DNA from: Candidatus Woesearchaeota archaeon
Lineage (GTDB): Archaea > Nanobdellota > Nanobdellia > Woesearchaeales > DSVV01
DNA length: 37,557 nucleotides
Reading direction: 5' to 3'
Assembly: GCA_016219865.1 (NCBI GenBank)
Contig: JACRKF010000031.1
Coordinates: 1-37,557 of the forward strand
Every line of letters starts with the position of its first letter. Position 1 is the first letter of the stretch. Below, piece by piece: positions 1,596-17,037 of this stretch. The notes beneath the pieces are model-generated. The model had not been told where the DNA came from and made no database searches. It worked only from the letters and a program-made list of their open reading frames with translations. A program made the position numbers and the translations under genes.

Positions 1596-2540
1596 ATGGC
1601 AAAACAATACAAATCAGTAAAGATTGCATTAATCCAAAGCGCAGTTTCAGAAGATATTAACAAAAATCTCCTGACAACTGTTCAGAAAATAAAACAAGCA
1701 GCAAAAAATGGAGCGCAGATTGTTTGTTTGCAGGAGTTGTTTAGAATTATTTATATAGGAGAATCAGAAAAAAAAGAATATTTTTCACTTGCAGAAGCTG
1801 ATAATGGTGAAACTGTTGCAACAATGCAAAAGCTTGCAAAAGAAAATAAAATTGTCATAATTACTCCTTTTTTTGAAGTCGCAATTAAAAAGAATCCTAA
1901 AGTCCGGATTGCCCAACAGGGAGAATTTTGCGAAGCAAAATTCTCCGAATATTTTAACACAACTGTTGTTGTTGATGCTGATGGAACAATTGCCGGCAAA
2001 TATAGAAAAATGCATATTCCTCATGATCCTGGATTCTGGGAAAGATATTATTTCAAAAATGGAGATCTTGGATTTCAAGCAATTCAGACAAAATATGCAA
2101 AAATTGGTGTATTAATCTGCTGGGATCAATGGTTTCCTGAAGCTGCGAGATTAATGACTTTATCTGGAGCAGAAATTCTTTTTTATCCTACTGCAATTGG
2201 ATGGTATAAGGAAAAGGAACCAAAACTTTATGAAGAATATAAACAAGGATGGATGATAATGCAGCGGAGTCATGCAATTGCAAATTCAGTGTATGTTGCA
2301 GCTGTTAATAGAGTTGGAAAAGAATTTGCAGATAAAGTAACTTTCTGGGGCAATTCTTTTGTTTGCGGTAATTTTGGACAATTTCTTGCGTATGCAGGTG
2401 AATCAGAAGAGATTCTGTATGCAGATTGTGATCTTTCAGAGAATAAAGAAGTGCGTGATTCATGGGGATTTTTTAATGGCAGAAGAACAGATGCATATAA
2501 AGGATTGTTAGAGAAAGAGATTAAAGAGATTAAAAAGTGA
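1596..2540 (+). CDS. aguB: N-carbamoylputrescine amidase (nitrilase superfamily)
   Basis: This enzyme hydrolyses N-carbamoylputrescine to putrescine, CO2 and ammonia, the last step of the agmatine deiminase route to polyamines, in the cytoplasm. The nitrilase catalytic triad is visible: Glu47 in CLQELF, Lys138 in GKYRKMHIP, and Cys175 in ICWDQWFPEAARL. The segments SGAEILFYPTAIGW and the C-terminal NGRRTDAYKGL are typical of this subfamily. At 314 residues it is somewhat longer than the usual 290-300. The extra length is an insertion at about residues 95-118, between the PFFE strand and the YFNTTVVVDADG strand, where family members normally have a short linker. That insertion is encoded by a palindromic element (1902-1946). 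The next gene, aguA, starts 6 nt after the stop, forming an operon for consecutive steps in the pathway. A box-A-like tract lies at about 1563-1577. Confidence 0.93.
   Translation: MAKQYKSVKIALIQSAVSEDINKNLLTTVQKIKQAAKNGAQIVCLQELFRIIYIGESEKKEYFSLAEADNGETVATMQKLAKENKIVIITPFFEVAIKKNPKVRIAQQGEFCEAKFSEYFNTTVVVDADGTIAGKYRKMHIPHDPGFWERYYFKNGDLGFQAIQTKYAKIGVLICWDQWFPEAARLMTLSGAEILFYPTAIGWYKEKEPKLYEEYKQGWMIMQRSHAIANSVYVAAVNRVGKEFADKVTFWGNSFVCGNFGQFLAYAGESEEILYADCDLSENKEVRDSWGFFNGRRTDAYKGLLEKEIKEIKK
1902..1946 (-). repeat. in-frame palindromic element inside aguB
   Basis: A perfect 12-bp stem, GGAGAATTTTGC (1920-1931) and GCAAAATTCTCC (1935-1946), closes a GAA loop. Seen on the minus strand it is followed after 7 nt by GGCAATCCGGAC (plus-strand 1902-1913). 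The same stem, spacing and 12-mer recur inside ileS at 28676-28723. Length here is 45 bp, exactly 15 codons, so the reading frame is kept. It coincides with the extra residues in AguB. Confidence 0.88.
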
Positions 2541-2546
2541 TCTTCT

Positions 2547-3647
2547 ATGAAAACGCAGAAATTACAATTGCCAACGCCAAAATCATTAGGTTATCACATG
2601 CCAGCTGAATGGGAAGAACAAGAAGCAATATGGTTAGCGTGGCCTAAGAATGAAGAAACTTGGATGGATTTTCTGCCAAAAGTGCAAGAGATTTTTATTG
2701 AGTTTGTCTATCATTTACATTTTGATCAGAAAATAAATGTTCTTGTTGATGATAAAGCTTCAGAAACTATTGTTCGAGAGAAGTTTAAAAATAAAAAAAT
2801 TGATCTTTCTAAAGTTAATTTTTATCAGATAAAAACAATTGATGCTTGGATGAGAGATATTGGTCCAACATTTGTTGTAAATAGAATAGAAAATAGTCAG
2901 GAAAACAAAAAAGATATTGCAACAGAAAAAAGAATTGCAATGGTTAATTGGATATTTAATGCTTGGGGAAATAAATATGATGATCTCAAAGCAGATAATA
3001 TTATTCCAAAAAAAATGAATGAATTCTTGAATATGAAGCGATTTAAACCAAAGATTGTATTAGAAGGCGGTTCAATTGAAGTGAATGGAAAAGGAACTTG
3101 TTTGACATCAAAACAATGTCTGCTTAATAAAAATAGAAACCCGCAATTGTCCCAGAAAGAGATTGAACAATATCTGAAAGATTATCTTGGCGCAAGCAAT
3201 ATTATTTGGCTGAATGAAGGAATTGTTGGCGATGATACAGATGGCCATATTGATGATCTAGCAAGATTTGTGGATGCAACAACTGTTGTCTGCGTTTATG
3301 AAGATGATAAGAGTGATGAAAATTATAATTTTCTTTCAGAAAATTATACACTTTTAAAACAGGCGAAAGATCAGGATGGAAATGCTTTAAAGATTATTAA
3401 ATTGCCAATGCCCGGCAAAGTGTTTGATGAAGAAACTGGCAAGCGTTTGCCTGCAAGCTATGCAAACTTTTATATTGGAAATAAAACTGTTGTTGTTCCA
3501 ATATTTGGGCATGAAAATGATGAGAAAGCATTGAAGATTCTGCAAGAATGTTTTGTTGGCAGAAAAGTTGTTGGCATTAATTGCGCAGCGCTTGTTTTAG
3601 GGTTTGGAACTTTGCATTGCATTAGTCAGCAGATGCCGATGGTGTAA
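2547..3647 (+). CDS. aguA: agmatine deiminase
   Basis: The 366-residue enzyme of the peptidylarginine-deiminase fold converts agmatine to N-carbamoylputrescine and ammonia. Diagnostic blocks are DAWMRDIGPTFVVN (substrate-binding Asp region), EGGSIEVNGKGT followed by CLLNKNRNP, GDDTDGHIDDLARFV with the catalytic Asp/His, and a C-terminal LHCISQQMP in which Cys358 is the nucleophile. Length matches the family. A stretch of about 12 additional residues, rich in N, K and E, occurs after TFVVNR; unlike the AguB insertion it has no palindrome in its DNA. The gene follows aguB by 6 nt and was probably co-transcribed. Arginine must first be decarboxylated to agmatine elsewhere in the genome. This two-step route is better known from plants and bacteria than from archaea, which often use agmatine ureohydrolase; distribution in this lineage cannot be judged here. 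Confidence 0.94.
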   Translation: MKTQKLQLPTPKSLGYHMPAEWEEQEAIWLAWPKNEETWMDFLPKVQEIFIEFVYHLHFDQKINVLVDDKASETIVREKFKNKKIDLSKVNFYQIKTIDAWMRDIGPTFVVNRIENSQENKKDIATEKRIAMVNWIFNAWGNKYDDLKADNIIPKKMNEFLNMKRFKPKIVLEGGSIEVNGKGTCLTSKQCLLNKNRNPQLSQKEIEQYLKDYLGASNIIWLNEGIVGDDTDGHIDDLARFVDATTVVCVYEDDKSDENYNFLSENYTLLKQAKDQDGNALKIIKLPMPGKVFDEETGKRLPASYANFYIGNKTVVVPIFGHENDEKALKILQECFVGRKVVGINCAALVLGFGTLHCISQQMPMV

Positions 3648-5503: not shown

Positions 5504-6643
5504 ATGACTGATACTCAATTTAATAAAGATTTGTATGCAAAAGCAATATTTCCTATGCAATTATTTGATGGAATCTTTTTTAGAAATGGAACAGTTATCA
5601 GAGAAATTGATTCTGCTGCAGATTTTGGTTTGCTTATGGCGCAACTTGTTAATCAGATTGAATCACCACAAGATATTAACCAGAGAAAATTATCTCTTGA
5701 TACTCGTTTAGAGAAAGAATTAGTATTGCTTACTCATTTGATTGATACAAGTAAAACTCTGTATTTTGGCATTCAACATAACTTAGCAAATTCTCGTCAA
5801 GAAAGAGCATATCAGCAATGTTTGTATTCTGAAAGAAAAGCGCATAAAAAAGAGATTCAATCTATTCCTTATCATGTTCTTGCATTTTTGTATTATACTC
5901 TCATGCATGGCCAAAGCACACTTGGGCATTATGATACTGCAGAAAGAAGTTATGTTTCTGCATTGAGAGAATTACGGAATCAAGGAATATCATCTCCAAG
6001 AGTACTTTTATTAGGATTTTCATCTATTTATTCTTTGGAGAATTTAGCAGCAATGCTTCATCTTGTTGGATTCAAGCAGAGCAATATCTTAGCGATAGAT
6101 AAAATGGCTCATCCTTTAAATGCAGGTAAAAGCTATTATGGAAATAAACTTTTTAATTCTACGATAACTTATATACAACAGGATATTCTAGCAGATCAAT
6201 TGGAGGATAGAATTGCAGAAACTCAATTTGATCTAATAGCAACGCATCTCTTCTTCACTCATTTTCCTGATGCGCAAAAAAAGCTGGTATGGAAAAAGAT
6301 ATCTCAATTATTATCACCAAATGGAATTTTTGCAGATGAAGAAATCTTTGTAAATGGCCGGATAAATAGGCAAGCATATAATGATTATTTTAGAACACTT
6401 ACTAATGATTATAAACCTGATGCAACTGATCCTTCTACTCTCCTGAATATAAGCGATTATCTCTATCAATTTGGAAGCGCTGGACCATTTAATCCTTATT
6501 ATAGTATTTCATATGTTTCTTATGATGCGCAAAAAGAAGCAGGATTAAGAATACAAATGCCTTTTCTCAGCACAAGAAATATTTGGGCAGCAGGCGGCGG
6601 AGTAGTTACAGCTGATATGCATGCAATACATGCAAGAAAATAG
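5504..6643 (+). CDS. class I SAM-dependent methyltransferase-like protein
   Basis: The 379-residue protein has an N-terminal mostly helical region (about 1-160) and a Rossmann-fold methyltransferase-like core. The core shows a degenerate motif I at RVLLLGFSSIYSLENLAAML, an acidic end of strand beta2 in ILAIDKMAHPL, a motif-IV-like FDLIATHLFFTHFP, and a post-motif LLSPNGIFADEEIF typical of methyltransferases. The usual GxGxG glycine loop is replaced by GFSSIYS, so SAM binding is likely but not certain. Substrate is unknown. A box A (TTTTTATAAATT) lies about 25-30 nt before the ATG, flanked by AACAAT/ATTGTT half sites at 5466-5488 that could be an operator. It is divergent from the PLP enzyme and convergent with the ACT protein. 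Confidence 0.72.
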   Translation: MTDTQFNKDLYAKAIFPMQLFDGIFFRNGTVIREIDSAADFGLLMAQLVNQIESPQDINQRKLSLDTRLEKELVLLTHLIDTSKTLYFGIQHNLANSRQERAYQQCLYSERKAHKKEIQSIPYHVLAFLYYTLMHGQSTLGHYDTAERSYVSALRELRNQGISSPRVLLLGFSSIYSLENLAAMLHLVGFKQSNILAIDKMAHPLNAGKSYYGNKLFNSTITYIQQDILADQLEDRIAETQFDLIATHLFFTHFPDAQKKLVWKKISQLLSPNGIFADEEIFVNGRINRQAYNDYFRTLTNDYKPDATDPSTLLNISDYLYQFGSAGPFNPYYSISYVSYDAQKEAGLRIQMPFLSTRNIWAAGGGVVTADMHAIHARK

Positions 6644-8783: not shown

Positions 8784-10916
8784 TTAAATCACAGGCACAT
8801 CTTCTTTTGACTTAACGCCGTATACAAACAAATCTGTCCAGAATGTTCTCTTTACATGAACATAATTTATGCTGATGCCTTCTTCTCGGAAGATTTCAAC
8901 AACTTTTTCTGGCTGCGCAATCCAGCCTATGTTTGGCACAAATGAGAATACATCAACTTCTTCTTTAAAGACAATTCTTCCACCATCTGGCAATATTGCT
9001 GCCATTTCTTTTGCAACTTTTCGCAGATCTTGAATATGACCCAGCATTCCTGTAGAAATAATAGCATTTACTTGAGGAATATGCGGATATACTCTGTTAA
9101 CTTGATGTTCATCGTGTATTGCAGTAATTTGCGTAATCTTTCTTCTTTCAATCTTTTCACTTATTTTGAAGATTGTTCTTTCAGATAAATCTGTAACATA
9201 TACTCTTCCAGTGTTTCCAACTTTTTCTGCAACATCTATTGTAAATCGTGTTCCTGTTGTTCCATATAATAATACTTTTTTCCCTGTTATATCTCCAATT
9301 TTTCCATACAATTCATCTCTAATATTTCTTGATAATATTAATGGTTCAGATAGCCAGCTGAAGTAATTCATAAAGTGTTTCAGTTTTGTATAGACGTCAG
9401 GATCAAAATAAACTACTAGCAATGCGTAGATAGGAAAACCTAAAAGAAGCAAAGCAATTGCTGAAAATAAGACAAGCAATCCATTCTCATCATATTTTAC
9501 CCAAAGTATTATTATCATGAAAAGCGCTATGATTATTATGTATGGCAGAATGTTCCCAAATGCTGCTTTATATGGGCGTTTTGCTTCCGGAGATCTTTCT
9601 CTCAGCACAGGAATTGCAAGCAATGTGATGCAGACTAATAAGATTGAGAAGAAGATAAATATTGTTAGAAAGTAGGTAAAAGGATCAATCTCATCAAAGT
9701 AATCATTGAAGATATACATGATGTACATAATTATTATGAATAATGATAATGTTTTTGCCTGAAATCTTATAGCTCTAACTGGCTGCTGAAATTCTTCATC
9801 AATCTTTGCGAAGCTTGTTGGAAATAATTTATCTTTTGCAATTGAGTAAATCAGTCTTGGTCCTGATAATATCCAGCCTAATCCTTCAAAGAAATAAAGT
9901 ATTCCTGCTAAAATAATAAGAAAGCTGACAAAAAGCGCGCTGTACTGGCCAAGTGTTATTTGCGCTATATCTGCAAAGTATGCGCTTGATTCTGCATAAG
10001 TTTCTGTATCTAGAACTCCAAATGATCCAATAACAAATAATAATGTAACTATCCCAACTGTAATCATTGACCATTTGAATACTTTTGGCAATACTTTCTC
10101 AGGCTCTTTTACTTCACCAGATAAATAAGAAATTGCTGATAATCCGAATAGTGAAGTGCAGGAAATAAATATTGCGCCAAATATCAAAGCAAAATTAAGA
10201 CCTGGATCTTCTGCGCTGAAGAATGGTTCATACAAATTAAAATTAACATGAGATCTCACTATGCCATTTTGCGTAAGCGATGGTATATCAATAAACATAG
10301 GTATGATCAATAATGCAAATGCAAACAAAATTATTATTGTAAAATAAAACATAATGCTATTTCCGATGTCCTTGCCTTTTTTTGCAAGATATGAAAGTAA
10401 GAATATAGTTGCTAAACAAATTGCTGCTTTTAAGATATAGGTGTAGGTTATATTTATTACTAATTCTTCAGGAATTAATACTTCTAATCCTGCTGTAATT
10501 GAGATAGCAACACCGATATTTCCAACTAACCAATTCAGCCAACCAACAATAAATGAGATAAATGTGCCAAAAGTTATTTTGCTTACTTCATAAATACCTC
10601 CTGATGATGGAAACATGCTAATAAGTTCTCCGTAACACATTGCAATATAAATTCCAATCATTGTAATTAAAATCCATGAGATTAATGATGCTTTTCCTGC
10701 AAAATTTATCCCATATTGTGGAATATAGAATATAGATGAATCAAAAATAAAGTTTAATGCTAAAATAAACAAAATTCCAAAACCTAATGTTTTTTTAAGC
10801 TCAGCGCTAGTTTGTTCTTTATTTTCCTCTTTTACTTCCATTAATTCATCAGCAGACTTGATGAATTTTAAGTTCTGCTTTGTTTCAGGCAGGGTTGTTT
10901 GTTGGGTTTCTTCCAT
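8784..10916 (-). CDS. APC-family amino-acid permease fused to a C-terminal methyltransferase-like domain
   Basis: The 710-residue protein is a fusion. Residues about 40-500 form an APC-superfamily transporter with about 12 membrane segments. Signature stretches are FPSSGGIYEVSKITFG in the TM3 loop region, GPRLIYSIAKDKLFP, and RERSPEAKRPYKAAF before the last helices, all typical of amino-acid/polyamine transporters. Residues about 535-705 form a soluble Rossmann-like domain: GKKVLLYGTTGTRF (motif I position), GRVYVTDLSERTI (acidic end of beta2), VNAIISTGMLGHI (motif IV) and ILPDGGRIVFKEEV. Motif I lacks the usual glycine-rich consensus, so the domain could bind a nucleotide-type ligand without methylating. 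The N-terminal 35 residues are hydrophilic. It lies 36 nt downstream of the GH57 gene and probably shares its transcript. Confidence 0.85.
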   Translation of the reverse strand: MEETQQTTLPETKQNLKFIKSADELMEVKEENKEQTSAELKKTLGFGILFILALNFIFDSSIFYIPQYGINFAGKASLISWILITMIGIYIAMCYGELISMFPSSGGIYEVSKITFGTFISFIVGWLNWLVGNIGVAISITAGLEVLIPEELVINITYTYILKAAICLATIFLLSYLAKKGKDIGNSIMFYFTIIILFAFALLIIPMFIDIPSLTQNGIVRSHVNFNLYEPFFSAEDPGLNFALIFGAIFISCTSLFGLSAISYLSGEVKEPEKVLPKVFKWSMITVGIVTLLFVIGSFGVLDTETYAESSAYFADIAQITLGQYSALFVSFLIILAGILYFFEGLGWILSGPRLIYSIAKDKLFPTSFAKIDEEFQQPVRAIRFQAKTLSLFIIIMYIMYIFNDYFDEIDPFTYFLTIFIFFSILLVCITLLAIPVLRERSPEAKRPYKAAFGNILPYIIIIALFMIIILWVKYDENGLLVLFSAIALLLLGFPIYALLVVYFDPDVYTKLKHFMNYFSWLSEPLILSRNIRDELYGKIGDITGKKVLLYGTTGTRFTIDVAEKVGNTGRVYVTDLSERTIFKISEKIERRKITQITAIHDEHQVNRVYPHIPQVNAIISTGMLGHIQDLRKVAKEMAAILPDGGRIVFKEEVDVFSFVPNIGWIAQPEKVVEIFREEGISINYVHVKRTFWTDLFVYGVKSKEDVPVI

Positions 10917-10952: not shown

Positions 10953-12263
10953 TTATATTATTAATTCATTATTCTCATTTATATCTTTTTCTTTTAAATT
11001 GTTTTCATTTGCTTTTCTTATTCTTATTTTTATATCTTTTAGGATATTCATAAATGTGATAAATGCATCATAAGGGCTTTCATATGGATTAAAGTATTTG
11101 TGGACATCGCCGTCTTCAAACCATTTTGTGCACATATAATAAAAATGATCTGATGTTTGCAGTTTTCTCCAATCATGCATTAATTTTTTATCATTTGTTT
11201 CAGTTATCTCTTTTTCAAGCTGATATAATTCATGAAATGCTGAGCGTTGTATCTGATTGCCAAGCCATGCAGATAGATCGCGTTCAATATCTGCCCATGA
11301 TATGAAATTATGAACATCAATTATATCTTTTATATTCTTTTTTGCAACCTCGCTAGGCAGCAAAAAAGAATTATCATTGTTATCATCATTAATATTATTA
11401 TTGCTCTTGTTTAGTTTCAAAAACTCAATTGGAAACTGTTTAAGAAAGTCAAATATTCCTGTTGATTCCCATTGATGCTCGCCAAATGTTTCATAATCCA
11501 TAAATAGATTTATAGTTTCATCGTCCCCATTATCTTTGTTATTATCTTTATTATCATTATTATTATTATTACTGTTGTTGTTGATCCAAGAAACATACTT
11601 CTCTGCAGTTAAAGGCCATTCTTTCCAGTCTTTGTTTGAGAAACGAAATGCTATATCATCACTAAGTTTATAATTTTTTAATAGAACTTTTATATTATTG
11701 CTATAAGTTGCGCCATAAATAAGATTAGGAGATCTTTCATTAAGAATATGATCAGCGCCTTCTGCAAGTATTCCAGTATAGCCAAGTGATTCAATAAAAT
11801 TTGCTAATTCATTGTTAAAAATAAGTTCTGTATTTCTAAATATAGTTGGTTCTTGGCCAAAAATTGTTTTTATTGCGCTTTTATGCAGGTTAACCTGTTT
11901 TACAAATTCTTCTTTTGACTGCAGATATGCGAGAGAATGGTAATATGTCTCTGAAAGAAATTCAACACAGCCAGTATTTGCTAATTCTCTAAAGCTTTGT
12001 ATTACTTCAGGAGAATATAAATGAAATTGCTCTAAAGCGCAGCCAGAGATTGAGAATGCAACTCTAAATCTGCCATTTGTTTGTTTGATCAAATCTAAGA
12101 TTATTTTATTTGTTGGAAGATAACATTTATTGGCAACTTTTTTGCAAATCTCTTCATTTTTCTTAGTATCAAAATATTTGCTGTTGTTGCCGATATCAAA
12201 CACAGTGTAATTTCTAAGTCTAAATGGCTGGTGAACTTGGAAATACATGCAGATGTTTACCAT
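10953..12263 (-). CDS. GH57 family alpha-amylase-like glycoside hydrolase
   Basis: The 436-residue protein has the GH57 blocks in order: YFQVHQPFRL at the N-terminus (motif I, His11), SISGCALEQF (motif II), a motif III with IFRNTELIFNN where Glu146 is the expected nucleophile, and FMDYETFGEHQ where Asp256 is the expected acid/base. GH57 enzymes cut alpha-1,4-glucan bonds, so the likely role is cytoplasmic glycogen or maltodextrin breakdown. Between motif III and the catalytic Asp lies a low-complexity Asn/Asp tract at about residues 228-248, encoded by an AAT/GAT microsatellite at roughly 11521-11580; a second Asn-rich loop follows at about 285-300. Both sit in surface-loop positions. The gene starts 2 nt after the GT4 stop, a tight operon. 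No signal peptide. Confidence 0.9.
   Translation of the reverse strand: MVNICMYFQVHQPFRLRNYTVFDIGNNSKYFDTKKNEEICKKVANKCYLPTNKIILDLIKQTNGRFRVAFSISGCALEQFHLYSPEVIQSFRELANTGCVEFLSETYYHSLAYLQSKEEFVKQVNLHKSAIKTIFGQEPTIFRNTELIFNNELANFIESLGYTGILAEGADHILNERSPNLIYGATYSNNIKVLLKNYKLSDDIAFRFSNKDWKEWPLTAEKYVSWINNNSNNNNNDNKDNNKDNGDDETINLFMDYETFGEHQWESTGIFDFLKQFPIEFLKLNKSNNNINDDNNDNSFLLPSEVAKKNIKDIIDVHNFISWADIERDLSAWLGNQIQRSAFHELYQLEKEITETNDKKLMHDWRKLQTSDHFYYMCTKWFEDGDVHKYFNPYESPYDAFITFMNILKDIKIRIRKANENNLKEKDINENNELII
11521..11580. repeat. trinucleotide microsatellite coding Asn/Asp tract in GH57
   Basis: A run of ATT/ATC/GTT-type triplets encodes a mixed Asn/Asp tract of about 20 residues just before the catalytic FMDYETF motif. 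It looks like slippage-generated low complexity in a surface loop; the frame is kept because the units are triplets. Confidence 0.7.
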
Positions 12264-12265
12264 TG

Positions 12266-13498
12266 TTAATCCTCTTTTATCTTATGGAGTTCGATCAGAT
12301 CTTTATAGATATCAACACATTTCTGCGCAGGAATCTGCCAATTAAATCGCATTGCTTCTTTTTTTCCATTAATCTTTAAATTATGATAAAGCTCAGGATA
12401 TTGCAGTACCGCTAATATTTTGTTTGCCATTTGGTTTGTGTCCCAAAAGTCAACTTTTAATACATGGCGCAATACTTCGCTTACTCCTGATTGTTTTGAT
12501 ATTAATACCGGAGTGCCATTGCTTAATGATTCTAATGGAGTAATGCCAAATGGTTCTGATATTGATGGCATTACATATAAATCTGCTAAGTTGTACATCT
12601 TATCAACATCTTTTCCAGTAAGAAATCCAGTAAATACAACTTTATTTGCAATATTTAACTCTGCTGCTTTTTCAATTATCTGAGATTCCATATCTCCAGA
12701 GCCGGTAATGACAAACAGCACATCTGGATTTATCTTAAGAACTTTTTCTGCAGCATAAAGAAAATAATCAGCGCCTTTCTGCACTGTAAGCCTGCCTAAA
12801 AACAGCACAATCTTTTCATGAGATTTTTTGTGTATGTTATGGATGCGTGATTTATGTTCAACTGCATTATGTACAACTGCAATTTTATCTGCTGGAATCT
12901 CATAATTATCAATTATCTTTTGTTTAGTGAAATTGCTGACAGCTATTATTTTATCTGCCCGCATCATTCCTTCTTTCTCTATATCATAAATTATTTGATC
13001 AGGATTGTCTGCTGTTCTATCAAATTCTGTTGCATGGATATGCGCAACTAATGGCTTGTTTGTTTCTTCTTTTGCTTTTATTGCAGCTGGAAATGTCAGC
13101 CAATCATGCGCGTGGATTATGTCACAATCTGATTGTTTTGCTATCTTTTTAGTAATTTCTGCATACCTTTGGACTTCTTCATGCAGGTTATTGCCATATA
13201 ATGCTGAGAAATAATCGCCTTTTCGTTTTATTCTTTTGTAATCTTGTGAACTGATATATGGTTTTAAAATGCTTGCAATTTTCTTAATTTTCATAAATTT
13301 ATCTGTTGAATCATTTTCTATTTTGTTAAGCGCTAAAAGATTAAGATGGCTAGAGCTATTGCTTTGTTCTCCTTGCGGCACAACGAATGTGATATCAACA
13401 TTTTCTTGATTCAATGCTTTTGTTAATCCATAGCACGCTGTACCTAATCCCCCTGAATTTATTGGAGGGAATTCCCATCCAAACATTAATACTTTCAC
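12266..13498 (-). CDS. GT4-family glycosyltransferase, glycogen/alpha-glucan synthase-like
   Basis: The 410-residue protein starts with GTG at 13498 and opens KVLMFGWEFPPINSGGLGTA, the acceptor-side loop of glycogen-synthase-like GT-B enzymes. The GT-B C-terminal half shows FLGRLTVQKGADYFL, VLFVITGSGDM and the donor-site EX7E motif in SEPFGITPLESLSNGTPVL. It probably transfers glucose from UDP- or ADP-glucose to a growing alpha-glucan; the donor is not decided by the sequence. It is first in an operon with the GH57 amylase. A box A on the minus strand at about 13560-13572 predicts a leader of 35-40 nt containing part of the direct repeat pair at 13515-13560. A Shine-Dalgarno-like AAGGGG precedes the GTG by 6-7 nt. 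It is divergent from vapB. Confidence 0.87.
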   Translation of the reverse strand: MKVLMFGWEFPPINSGGLGTACYGLTKALNQENVDITFVVPQGEQSNSSSHLNLLALNKIENDSTDKFMKIKKIASILKPYISSQDYKRIKRKGDYFSALYGNNLHEEVQRYAEITKKIAKQSDCDIIHAHDWLTFPAAIKAKEETNKPLVAHIHATEFDRTADNPDQIIYDIEKEGMMRADKIIAVSNFTKQKIIDNYEIPADKIAVVHNAVEHKSRIHNIHKKSHEKIVLFLGRLTVQKGADYFLYAAEKVLKINPDVLFVITGSGDMESQIIEKAAELNIANKVVFTGFLTGKDVDKMYNLADLYVMPSISEPFGITPLESLSNGTPVLISKQSGVSEVLRHVLKVDFWDTNQMANKILAVLQYPELYHNLKINGKKEAMRFNWQIPAQKCVDIYKDLIELHKIKED

Positions 13499-13514
13499 AA
13501 TACAACCCCTTTTT

Positions 13515-13560
13515 AGAGTATTAACTAACTTATTCTTCTCTTTGAGAGTCTTGACTAACT
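13515..13560. promoter_or_regulatory. direct-repeat operator candidate between GT4 and vapB
   Basis: Two 16-nt direct repeats, AGAGTATTAACTAACT (13515-13530) and AGAGTCTTGACTAACT (13545-13560), match at 14 positions and start exactly 30 nt apart, about three helical turns. They lie just downstream of the GT4 box A. This suits cooperative binding of a regulator of the glycogen operon; which regulator is unknown. Confidence 0.5.
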
Positions 13561-13598
13561 GGGTATATAAACCTTTTGTGAGGTTGTATGATGGAAAT

Positions 13599-13621
13599 GT
13601 TTATATATGTGTATGCGCATA
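13599..13621 (+). promoter_or_regulatory. vapB promoter and palindromic operator
   Basis: Box A GTTTATATATG (13599-13609) is centred 26 nt before the ATG at 13630. The perfect 10-bp palindrome TATGCGCATA (13612-13621) lies between box A and the start, a natural position for VapB/VapC autorepression. Confidence 0.6.
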
Positions 13622-13629
13622 TACTTATG

Positions 13630-13869
13630 ATGACCAAAATAATCTCATTATCTGATAAGGCATATAGCAGAATGAAATCAATAAAAGCAGATTCAGAATC
13701 TTTTTCTGATGTAGTTATACGTTTAACTGAAAAGAAAACTAAAATGCCAATCAGCGCTTTTTTCGGAAAATGGCCGGGCGGGGCAGAAGAATTAAATAAG
13801 ATTGAAAGAATATTGAAAGAAGATAGAAAAAGATTCAAAACAAGGGATGTTCATGAATTATTGTCTTGA
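13630..13869 (+). CDS. vapB: VapB-type antitoxin (DUF217-like)
   Basis: The 79-residue protein starts MTKIISLSDKAYSRMKSIKA, then ESFSDVVIRLTEKK, the ribbon-helix-helix-like N-terminal pattern of the archaeal DUF217/VapB antitoxins, and ends in a charged C-terminal region with the toxin-wrapping GKWPGGAEELNKIERIL. I choose the ATG at 13630: the box A at 13599-13609 is 26 nt upstream, while the longer frame to 13588 starts inside the promoter. An adjacent ATG at 13627 cannot be excluded. The stop overlaps the start of vapC by 17-23 nt, typical of coupled translation. The palindrome at 13612-13621 suggests autoregulation. The module splits the glycogen gene cluster and is in opposite orientation to it, so it looks like an insertion. 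Confidence 0.85.
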   Translation: MTKIISLSDKAYSRMKSIKADSESFSDVVIRLTEKKTKMPISAFFGKWPGGAEELNKIERILKEDRKRFKTRDVHELLS

Positions 13870-14245
13870 TACAAATGTAATTGCTGATATCTTTCGTGGA
13901 AATAATGTTATTAAATTAAACTTTGAAAAAATTCAAAATGATCCTTTATTCATTCCACCTATTGTTTTATGTGAATTGTATAAGGGTGCTTTTCTGTCTA
14001 ATAAAACACAAGATTCTTTGCAATTTATTAATCAGTTTAGGGTAAGTGTGCATTTTATTCATTTTGATGAAAATGCTTGTCTTATTTATGGGAAGCTTTA
14101 TGCATATTTGCAGAAGAAAGGAAAACCAACGCAAGAAGCTGATTTAATGATCGCAAGCATTGCAATTGCTCATGATCTTGTGCTTATTACTAAAAATGGA
14201 AAAGACTTTGCAAATATCCCTGAATTAAAATTAGAAGTATGGTGA
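13853..14245 (+). CDS. vapC: VapC-type PIN-domain ribonuclease toxin
   Basis: The PIN-domain toxin of about 130 residues begins MNYCLDTNVIADIFRGN, where Asp6 is the first catalytic acid. The second acidic position is in VLCELYKGAF (Glu), and the third group in QEADLMIASIAIAHD (Asp), followed by LITKNGKDFANIP with the fourth acid. All key acids are present, so the toxin is probably active as an Mg2+-dependent RNase; known VapCs cut tRNA or rRNA, but the target cannot be predicted. The start is either ATG 13847 or 13853; the second gives the canonical short N-terminus. A 12-bp-stem hairpin follows the stop. Confidence 0.88.
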   Translation: MNYCLDTNVIADIFRGNNVIKLNFEKIQNDPLFIPPIVLCELYKGAFLSNKTQDSLQFINQFRVSVHFIHFDENACLIYGKLYAYLQKKGKPTQEADLMIASIAIAHDLVLITKNGKDFANIPELKLEVW

Positions 14246-14273
14246 TTAATTTTTTACTGTTGTAAAAAATTAA
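14246..14273 (+). terminator. hairpin after vapC
   Basis: TTAATTTTTTAC (14246-14257) and GTAAAAAATTAA (14262-14273) form a perfect 12-bp stem with a 4-nt loop directly after the vapC stop and before the convergent debranching-enzyme gene. A terminator or mRNA 3'-end structure is the simplest reading. Confidence 0.55.
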
Positions 14274-14295
14274 AATTATTTTATTCTGATTTTTT

Positions 14296-16275
14296 TTACT
14301 TTCCATATATCTCCTGCACTAATTCAATGTATGTTCCAGCACTCCAAGCTTGCGCTAAACAACCTTCTGCTCGCTGTTCTTTTGCAGAGCTTAATTCAGA
14401 CGCATGGCCAATAAAACCATTCCAAAGAATATCTTGCGTTGATGCATCAACTATTTTTCTAATTGCATAATCATATTTTGTCTTGTTAATGCGATGGAGG
14501 CAAATAGCGGCAATATTGTTCAAGAAAAACCATGAATCTCCTCGGTGATAGCTTTTATTATTCTCTCCTGTGTGTTCCCATGTGAAATATTTGCTTGTTT
14601 TGTCAATTGTTGTTAATCCGCCCCAATCAACCCAAAGTTGTTTTAACGCAGTATCAAATACTTCTTCCCATTCTTGTTGTGATAATAATTCTGGATATAA
14701 ATAATGCGCTAAAAATATATTTGGACGTATTGTCGCATCGTTTTTGCCGTCTTTAAGAATATATTTTTCTGCGAAAAATATATCTTTTACTTTTTTTGTG
14801 AATTCTTGTTCAATCTTGGCATATTCTTTTGCTTTTTTGTTGTCATTAGTGATATTGCTTAATTCAATCATGAATTTTATCATAAATAATCTTGCTGCTT
14901 GTATTTCTATTCTTTCTCCTTCTCTTGCATCATTTGATGTATTGTCAATTGTTGTGTCCATCCATGTTTCTAATTTAAGGTTGTGGGTTAATCCACTTTT
15001 TGTATGATATTTTTCGTTTTTAATAAGTGATCTTAACAATGCATCTTTAATGCATTGAATATCATTGTCACTAAAATACTGCTGAAACTGTTTCTTTTTC
15101 TTTGTTTCTTCCATCAAATCTGAGATTCTTTTAAACAATAATCCAATGCTGTCGGCGCAGCCAAGTTCTGCTTTTGGAAATCTATTTGCCAGTCTTCCAT
15201 CAGGAAGTATATTTTCAAGCATTCTAAATAAGATTGATTTTGCCTCTGAAAAACGCTCTTCTTTAATAAGGCCAATTAATGCTATGTTTTCATCTCTTGT
15301 CCAGAATTGAAAGAACCACGGCAATCCAGCAAAAATGCCTTTGTTATTTGTTTTTTTTGTTTTGTTGTTGCTCTCATTACTGCTTAATTCAGTTGAAAGT
15401 TGATCCAGAGAATTGATGCAATTCTTATAAGCAAGTGAAACTTCACTGTTTCTTAAATTAATGTTGTGAGTTACAAGTGTTTTTGTATATTCTTGTTTTA
15501 ATCGTGACAATGTTAGTTGATTAAGAGCAACATTATTTGCAGTATCTATTGCTTCTTGTTTTGAATCATTATATGAAAATACTAATCTGGTATTTTTCTT
15601 GATCTTTAATTTTATTGCATCATAAATAAATAATTCATTTGGCTGTGAATTTCTTTTTTTGTCATATTCATATTCTTTTTTGCTCCATTTATTTACTAAT
15701 TCATATTCAATCGGAGAGTTTCTTTCATCACAACTTTTGATCACTAAGCAGACTTTGTAAATTGTGTTTTTCAATGAGTTATCTTTGTATTTAATGTATT
15801 CAATTATTACATTTTCATTTATCTTATTGATGCTGTAGATTCTTCCTTGATCGTCATAATCGTATATCTCTCGCGTATCAAGTGTTAAAAGAATGTCTCC
15901 TGTATAATTCTGCACAGAATAGAGAAATGCATTATTATAAAATTGAGTGAATTGTTCGCTTGCTTTGCCATATCTTCTTGTTATACAAAAAAAATTGTTT
16001 ATAATTTGCGCTGGCACATCATCTAGCTGAAGTGATTCAATTACTTTGTACATCACTGCTTTCTTTTCATTTAATTGTTTTAAGAAATAACATCCTTGAA
16101 ATCTAGAGATATTACTGCATGATGCTAATGATAAGTATCCTCCTTTCTTATTAGTTAATAAAAAGGATGGATTTTCAACCTCTTTTTCTTCTGCTTCATC
16201 CTCAATGATGTGCAGTAATCTTATGTTGTGCAAAAATCTCACCTCATAAAAACAATAAAAATTCGCGTCGCTCAT
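14296..16275 (-). CDS. glycogen debranching enzyme, amylo-alpha-1,6-glucosidase type (GH133/GDE C-terminal)
   Basis: The 659-residue protein has an N-terminal beta-rich domain (about 1-270) and an (alpha/alpha)6-barrel GDE_C domain (about 280-655). Diagnostic blocks are GIFAGLPWFFQFWTRDENIA at 313-332 (family pattern PWFxxxWxRD), ILPDGRLANRFPK, ADSIGLLFKRI, the WMDTTIDNTSNDAREGERIE acid region, and GCLAQAWSAGTYIEL at the end. It should remove alpha-1,6 branches from glycogen. The linker just before the catalytic domain (ELSSNESNNKTKKTNNKG) is Asn/Lys-rich, like the loops of the GH57 protein. The gene begins 3 nt after the stop of the nucleotidyltransferase gene and is the second gene of that operon. 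No signal peptide is visible, so it is likely cytoplasmic. Confidence 0.87.
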   Translation of the reverse strand: MSDANFYCFYEVRFLHNIRLLHIIEDEAEEKEVENPSFLLTNKKGGYLSLASCSNISRFQGCYFLKQLNEKKAVMYKVIESLQLDDVPAQIINNFFCITRRYGKASEQFTQFYNNAFLYSVQNYTGDILLTLDTREIYDYDDQGRIYSINKINENVIIEYIKYKDNSLKNTIYKVCLVIKSCDERNSPIEYELVNKWSKKEYEYDKKRNSQPNELFIYDAIKLKIKKNTRLVFSYNDSKQEAIDTANNVALNQLTLSRLKQEYTKTLVTHNINLRNSEVSLAYKNCINSLDQLSTELSSNESNNKTKKTNNKGIFAGLPWFFQFWTRDENIALIGLIKEERFSEAKSILFRMLENILPDGRLANRFPKAELGCADSIGLLFKRISDLMEETKKKKQFQQYFSDNDIQCIKDALLRSLIKNEKYHTKSGLTHNLKLETWMDTTIDNTSNDAREGERIEIQAARLFMIKFMIELSNITNDNKKAKEYAKIEQEFTKKVKDIFFAEKYILKDGKNDATIRPNIFLAHYLYPELLSQQEWEEVFDTALKQLWVDWGGLTTIDKTSKYFTWEHTGENNKSYHRGDSWFFLNNIAAICLHRINKTKYDYAIRKIVDASTQDILWNGFIGHASELSSAKEQRAEGCLAQAWSAGTYIELVQEIYGK

Positions 16276-16278
16276 TTT

Positions 16279-17037
16279 TTATTGTTTTTTGCATTGCAAA
16301 AAACTCTGAAAAAGTTTATTTACTTCTTTGTACTGCTCGTTATTGCCTATGTCAAACCATATTCCATCTGCAACATAAGCATAAACTTCTTTTTTATTTG
16401 AAAGGTACTTTATAAAATCTCCTGTGTTGTCCGACGCGTTATGCTCTTTGATGCAGTTTTCTAATTCTTCTATGTCTTCTCTTTTGAATAAGTAGCATAA
16501 TGTTGCAGCAAGGGTTGATCTTGGCGCAGCTGGTTTTTCTTCAAAATTAATTATCTTATTTTCTGCATTTATTGTTACACAGCCAAGTTTTCCTGCAATT
16601 ATATCTTTGTCTTTTGTATCGAATAATGCAATTACTGATGAATTTTTCTCTTTGAAATTCTTGCGCAGTTCTTCTAAGCTGAATGTGAACAAGTTGTCTC
16701 CGCCAATTATTAGAAGATCATCATTGATGTTCATTTGTTGAACAACGTAATGAATATCTCCTATTGCTCCCAAACGATCTTCGTTTGAATTAGTGTTATC
16801 ATTTATTATTATTACTGATTTATTTGATGAAAAATTTTCTTTCCAATCAACAAAATGATTGTAAAATCTATTGTTAGTTACAATATAAATGTGATCAATT
16901 GATGAAATCTCTTCAATCTTGTTAATAATATATTCAACCATAGGTATGCCTGCTACAGTTAACAATGGTTTTGGCGTTGTTAATGTTAATGGATACAACC
17001 TTGTTGCATACCCTGCTGCTAAAATTATTGCTTTCAT
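16279..17037 (-). CDS. sugar-1-phosphate nucleotidyltransferase
   Basis: The 252-residue protein is a complete nucleotidyl transferase domain. It begins KAIILAAGYATRLYPLT with the GxATRLxP nucleotide-binding signature, then TPKPLLTVAGIPMVEYI, DLLIIGGDNLF (metal-binding Asp), INFEEKPAAPRST (sugar-binding EKP motif) and IWFDIGNNEQY near the end. It most likely makes UDP- or ADP-glucose from glucose-1-phosphate, feeding the GT4 synthase across the VapBC insertion. There is no C-terminal left-handed beta-helix, so no acyl/acetyl transfer activity. A minus-strand TATA-like tract lies about 25-30 nt before the start. It is first in the operon with the debranching enzyme. Confidence 0.85.
   Translation of the reverse strand: MKAIILAAGYATRLYPLTLTTPKPLLTVAGIPMVEYIINKIEEISSIDHIYIVTNNRFYNHFVDWKENFSSNKSVIIINDNTNSNEDRLGAIGDIHYVVQQMNINDDLLIIGGDNLFTFSLEELRKNFKEKNSSVIALFDTKDKDIIAGKLGCVTINAENKIINFEEKPAAPRSTLAATLCYLFKREDIEELENCIKEHNASDNTGDFIKYLSNKKEVYAYVADGIWFDIGNNEQYKEVNKLFQSFLQCKKQ

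Follow-up and report, generated by a model that had tools for sequence, protein, structure and literature searches.

An archaeal family of APC-type permeases fused to a class I methyltransferase-fold domain, a candidate cis-regulatory tail that is altered in one clade

A gene of a Candidatus Woesearchaeota archaeon encodes an APC permease that runs in a single reading frame into a class I methyltransferase (MTase) fold domain. This combination of an APC permease with a presumably cytosolic tail of nucleotide-binding type is real, conserved across related genomes, and undescribed in the open-access literature searched. The gene is located in a 37,557-nucleotide stretch of DNA (contig JACRKF010000031.1 of assembly GCA_016219865.1), hereafter the window. 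In the explanation put forward here, which we give about an even chance of being right, the protein is an APC transporter with a cytosolic MTase-fold tail acting on it in cis; the tail would bind a ligand in most relatives and would be an altered or pseudo-MTase domain in the clade of the window protein. Small-genome archaea of this kind rely on imported nutrients, and a permease with its own metabolite-reading domain would, if this holds, link cell metabolism directly to uptake.

The gene consists of one ORF of 710 codons with an ATG start and no internal stop (Table 1). A whole-protein AlphaFold model generated from an alignment of 51 family members (pLDDT 84.7, pTM 0.80) comprised an APC-type bundle, the linker helix and an alpha/beta domain, in that order. 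An earlier note on this DNA had proposed a complete APC transporter followed by a methyltransferase-like domain; this was borne out by Pfam, the model of the tail, the fold match and the continuity of the frame, and all of the motifs quoted in the note are present in the window protein. A frameshift or misassembly joining two genes was ruled out, since the frame is open here and the same one-ORF fusion recurs in many related genomes.

Table 1. Coordinates of the permease-MTase gene, its parts and its upstream neighbors in the window.
Feature	Position	Strand	Remark
Whole gene: APC permease and class I MTase-fold domain	8784..10916	-	710 aa
N-terminal extension, residues 1-36	10809..10916	-	disordered in predicted model
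APC/LeuT-type permease, residues 37-504, helix breaks at TM1 and TM6	9405..10808	-	Pfam, PDB profile match, model
TM1 break, residues 59-61: D-S-S in window clade versus G-T-G in most relatives	10734..10742	-	
Enlarged TM5-TM6 loop, ~residues 209-237, predicted extracellular	10206..10292	-	topology inferred from APC fold
TM6 helix break, residues 254-260: window clade has T254 and S260 in place of the glutamates	10137..10157	-	
Enlarged TM9-TM10 loop, ~residues 402-413, predicted extracellular	9678..9713	-	topology inferred
Linker helix between TM12 and MTase-fold domain, residues 506-527	9336..9401	-	whole-protein model
Class I methyltransferase-fold domain, residues 530-710	8787..9329	-	Pfam, profile match, model, fold alignment
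SAM motif I position, residues 547-558, VLLYGTTGTRFT	9243..9278	-	degenerate; relatives e.g. VLEFGCSVGTLT
End of strand 2 with acidic D576 (RVYVTDLSER)	9177..9206	-	retained in window clade
IHDEHQVNR, residues 600-608, after strand 3	9093..9119	-	retained in window clade
GH57 glycoside hydrolase, next gene upstream	10953..12263	-	also upstream in L065
Rest of glycogen-type cluster (glycosyltransferase, GDE_C debranching enzyme, nucleotidyltransferase)	12266..17037	-	same order in L065

The permease half matched Pfam AA_permease_2 over residues 49-473 (E 3e-38, 132.2 bits against a cut-off of 27), and its best sequence match in the PDB was BasC (6f2g, E 1.5e-15). According to the model it adopts a 12-helix fold with breaks in TM1 (residues 58-60) and TM6 (residues 257-258), and the full model aligned with SLC7A10 (8wnt) at Z 43.0 (rmsd 3.2, 447 aligned) and with ApcT (3gia) at Z 35.7. 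By sequence and by fold this half is therefore alike to the AA_permease_2 permeases (SLC7/LAT, BasC, GkApcT and ApcT), whereas the BasC, SLC7A10 and ApcT structures are without the MTase-fold tail found in the window protein.

Sequence matches of the tail to MTases were weaker. Pfam Methyltransf_23, Methyltransf_25, Methyltransf_12 and Methyltransf_11 matched at residues ~545-652 with E values of 1e-5 to 4e-4, and only Methyltransf_11 passed its own cut-off (21.5 versus 21.2 bits), while a profile of the tail family matched the phosphoethanolamine methyltransferase 5wp5 in the PDB (E 1.5e-7). The structure prediction of residues 530-710 and fold search recommended in the earlier note yielded a complete class I MTase fold of seven strands when the tail was modeled alone from 75 family members (pLDDT 89.1, pTM 0.87). 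The top Foldseek match was 3dh0_A (E 1.6e-11), which also ranked first by VIA-align (Z 20.1, rmsd 2.7, 183 aligned), and every one of the 1000 chains re-aligned to the tail model had a Z of at least 8. The tail thus shares its complete fold with the Methyltransf_11/UbiE-like class I MTases, including 3dh0 and the phosphoethanolamine MTases, but differs from ordinary class I MTases in its fusion to a permease and in its degenerate motif I.

In order to establish how widely the fusion is distributed, the 371 genomes of the window's phylum were searched with a domain profile (E <= 1e-15), and the MTase domain was found in 106 of them. All hit loci other than the window's own were retrieved. A total of 127 ORFs contained the domain, a set in which some genomes are counted twice, once in each of two collections, and 123 of these held the permease in the same frame. 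Three of the four exceptions were cut by contig ends (L114, L121 and L130). The fourth, L122:6039-6623 (+) in genome G124, is a free-standing MTase-domain protein of 195 aa with an intact motif I and 13 kb of surrounding sequence without a permease; the sole APC gene of G124 is a weak 394-aa match elsewhere in the genome. An APC permease was present in 178 of the 371 phylum genomes (E <= 1e-10), and the MTase domain occurred in 100 of the 121 APC-bearing genomes of the window's order (G124 included) and in 6 of the 57 from the rest of the class. The fusion is accordingly the usual form of the permease in this order. The search of related genomes suggested in the earlier note recovered the same fusion; the architecture that the note called non-standard is real, but it is no singular oddity. 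Furthermore, a peptide-pattern scan of 84,980 species with six patterns from the window protein returned 14 loci, every one with the same fusion, whose titles named Woesearchaeota (11), Nanoarchaeota (1) and Euryarchaeota (2). A recent paralogue was ruled out in the window genome, which contained one APC gene (E <= 0.001), one strong MTase-domain match and two weak ones.

The window protein shows the features by which this woesearchaeal family is defined, a single ORF that joins an APC permease to an A2-type MTase domain at a constant distance. In the window clade, 54 residues separate TM12 from the MTase domain, compared with a median of 54 (range 51-56) in 97 other members, and such near-constancy suggests a fixed geometry between the two parts. 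One relative, L104:4866-7424 (+), has ~220 extra residues beyond the MTase domain.

Cofactor-site residues and permease markers were surveyed in 112 unique full-length proteins and placed on a tree built by FastTree alone. Motif I was intact in 92 proteins and broken in 20, 12 of which belong to one subfamily, which requires at least four changes on the tree. For the strand-2 acid, absent from 27 proteins, the minimum was 12 changes, and for the TM1/TM6 permease markers, lost in 6, it was three. Motif I and the strand-2 acid were both intact in 74 of the 112 proteins, and the permease markers as well in 71. The pocket aromatics Y627, Y653 and W693 were strongly conserved outside the window clade. 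An intact site in 71 of 112 proteins and conserved pocket aromatics are what would be expected if most members were active enzymes, and a possible though rather unlikely alternative is that the tail works as a SAM-dependent MTase tethered to the membrane, which methylates an imported solute or a membrane-near metabolite on the cytosolic side. The nearest solved relatives by sequence and by fold (5wp5/5wp4 and 3dh0) are real small-molecule MTases, a SAM synthetase is encoded in the window genome, and the free-standing copy in G124 is hard to reconcile with a tail that acts in cis alone. Together, that copy and the many members that look capable of binding SAM leave room for an enzyme in most of the family. 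Against catalysis as the general role, the fusion persists in 20 of the 112 proteins, the window clade among them, whose motif I is broken. A regulatory tail accounts better than an incidentally attached catalyst for a lasting fusion whose spacing is fixed and whose cofactor site has been lost repeatedly. These repeated natural losses also offer ready-made comparisons for telling an enzyme from a sensor.

A membrane-anchored MTase has been demonstrated elsewhere. Passages of PMC10349129 describe fungal NHMT as a seven-transmembrane methyltransferase that methylates protein N-termini in the ER; it resembles the window protein in joining an integral membrane part to a C-terminal MTase domain, but its membrane part is described there as a unique 7TM domain, whereas that of the window protein is an APC permease. 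A precedent for a regulatory tail is KimA, an APC-superfamily K+ transporter in which, according to passages of PMC10284832, c-di-AMP on the cytosolic domain locks the permease and blocks transport. Both proteins have an APC-fold permease followed by an alpha/beta domain, cytosolic in KimA, although the domain is PPAT-like in KimA as characterized in that source and MTase-like in the window protein, for which regulation of this kind is proposed by analogy. The good-rmsd match of the full model to KimA spans the permease only, and its long alignments to SLC12 proteins have an rmsd of 11-12 and prove no shared tail; the likeness is thus one of architecture and not of a common tail fold.

In the regulatory explanation, a linker helix would join the cytosolic MTase-fold domain to the C-terminus of an APC-superfamily solute transporter. 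In most relatives the tail would keep a SAM-type nucleotide site and bind SAM, SAH or some related ligand of adenosyl type, and the ligand-bound tail would bias the transport cycle in cis, much as the c-di-AMP-bound domain of KimA traps its permease. In the window clade the input to the tail would be altered or lost, leaving a pseudo-methyltransferase regulatory domain, and the substrate site and extracellular loops of the permease would have been remodeled on the same branch as the tail.

The window clade comprises the window protein, L065 from the same genus and L097 (support 100, branch length 0.85 in the FastTree tree of 112 proteins), and its neighbor L082 looks canonical. The motif I position, where an acidic residue and glycines are expected, reads L550 and T556 in the window protein with G552 retained. 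In the clade as a whole E550 is lost (E or D in 90 of 95 others), as is G556 (G in 93/95), while G552, the acidic D576 at the end of strand 2 and IHDEHQVNR are kept. The last of these had appeared invariant among the first 14 relatives, a set itself collected using IHDEHQVN among its search patterns; invariance was ruled out in a wider set of 100, in which H601 (79/100), D602 (82/100) and R608 (78/100) are common and E603 (44/100), H604 (53/100) and Q605 (41/100) are less so. The permease half has also lost transport-site markers of its own relatives, namely the TM1 glycine of the G-T-G motif (G59 to D; G in 93/95 others) and the TM6 glutamates (E254 and E260, each E in 91/95 others), together with H373, which is kept in 93/95 others. 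The earlier note had suggested that the domain senses SAM or a related ligand, or modifies the cargo on entry. Neither role can be read from the window copy, whose clade lacks E/D550, G556 and the TM1/TM6 transport-site residues; with the motif I residues gone, a SAM reading does not transfer simply from the relatives, and the sequence of the window copy itself weakens the claim of SAM sensing made for it.

The loops of the permease changed unevenly. The predicted extracellular TM5-TM6 loop measured 51 residues from anchor to anchor versus a median of 33, and the TM9-TM10 loop, also predicted to be extracellular, 32 versus 20, with none of 97 other members as long in either case. The TM3-TM4 loop was moderately longer (21, 17 and 21 residues in the three clade members versus a median of 15; 8/97 as long), and the N-terminus up to E39 comprised 39, 34 and 36 residues versus a median of 3 (6/97 as long). 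The intracellular loops measured in the clade were unchanged in length. The long TM5-TM6 and TM9-TM10 loops beside unchanged intracellular ones, the N-terminal extension, the loss of G59, E254 and E260, and the concentration of changes in both domains on one long, fully supported branch could also be accounted for by a non- or weakly transporting, transceptor-like receptor, one that senses an external ligand and passes the signal on via its tail. Yeast Ssy1 may offer a comparison for such a protein. For the window clade this reading appears quite unlikely: the protein may still transport, its altered residues marking a new solute, the model shows the fold of a normal APC transporter with TM1 and TM6 broken, and a single branch amounts to one event.

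The degenerate motif I in all three genomes of the clade could alternatively point to a relic under little constraint, either an incipient pseudogene or a passive spacer. Compared with L065, the permease of the window gene had a dN/dS of 0.093 and its MTase part one of 0.075 (dS about 1.2 and 0.8); the MTase part gave 0.13 against L097. These values are approximate given a dS of about 1.1. The frame has no stops, the MTase domain is more conserved than the permease (88% versus 83% identity to L065), and its complete fold is modeled with confidence. The window gene is under purifying selection and is not decaying, and a relic is very improbable.

The subfamily of 12 proteins with a broken motif I (support 100; members L146-L156 and L132:7119-9449) carries ~100-160 extra N-terminal residues, and its TM1/TM6 markers are intact in all 12. 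Among PDB entries, a profile of eleven of the N-termini matched the voltage sensor of KvAP (1ors, E 9e-6) as well as further voltage-gated channels. Pfam Ion_trans matched 5 of the 11 members (best E 5e-5), the member inspected scoring below the cut-off (22.9 versus 25 bits), and the last helix of the domain bears a row of arginines. The N-terminal domain accordingly reads as a putative voltage sensor, and the architecture as voltage sensor, permease and pseudo-methyltransferase. Such a version, if true, would be an unusual transporter under control of the membrane potential. An unlikely but broader proposal is that permeases of this archaeal order are controlled in cis by an MTase turned sensor whose input has been swapped between lineages: the main family would respond to an adenosyl ligand, the window clade would pair a remodeled pseudo-MTase with a receptor-like permease, and the sister subfamily with the KvAP-like domain would respond to membrane voltage.

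The permease gene is the last in a run of genes assigned by Pfam to GH57, a glycosyltransferase, a GDE_C debranching enzyme and a nucleotidyltransferase, and the distance from the GH57 stop to the permease start is 36 nt in the window and 40 nt in L065. The earlier note had placed the gene in a glycogen operon and taken this as a hint of a link between carbon store and amino-acid uptake. The upstream genes are real, but by neighbor clustering these neighbors were absent at the other 107 of 109 loci examined, including L097, which shares none of them. Their restriction to the window and L065 makes any glycogen link a genus-level one, which leaves the fusion unexplained, and as a cause of the fusion it was ruled out. 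Two small ORFs (102 aa on the - strand, 132 aa on the + strand) lie between the debranching enzyme and glycosyltransferase genes at 13530-14245 of the window; the same two genes are only ~90 nt apart in L065, so this segment may be an insertion.

Across the family, the commonest neighbor was a diphthamide-synthesis-type gene (PF01866; e.g. L099:6790-7572), nearly always upstream and divergent, at 30 of 109 loci. A ribosomal protein S7 gene was likewise near the fusion at 30 of 109, and eIF-1A and eIF2-gamma genes were also frequent; these counts are lower bounds owing to contig ends, with one representative annotated per cluster. No functional reading beyond synteny was found for the diphthamide-type and S7 neighbors at the 109 loci. 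Elsewhere in the window, a carbon-nitrogen hydrolase gene adjoins a peptidyl-arginine-deiminase-type gene at 1596-3647 (+), a pair that suggests an agmatine-to-putrescine pathway, and a 379-aa protein encoded at 5504-6643 (+) has a weak methyltransferase-domain match at residues 188-277.
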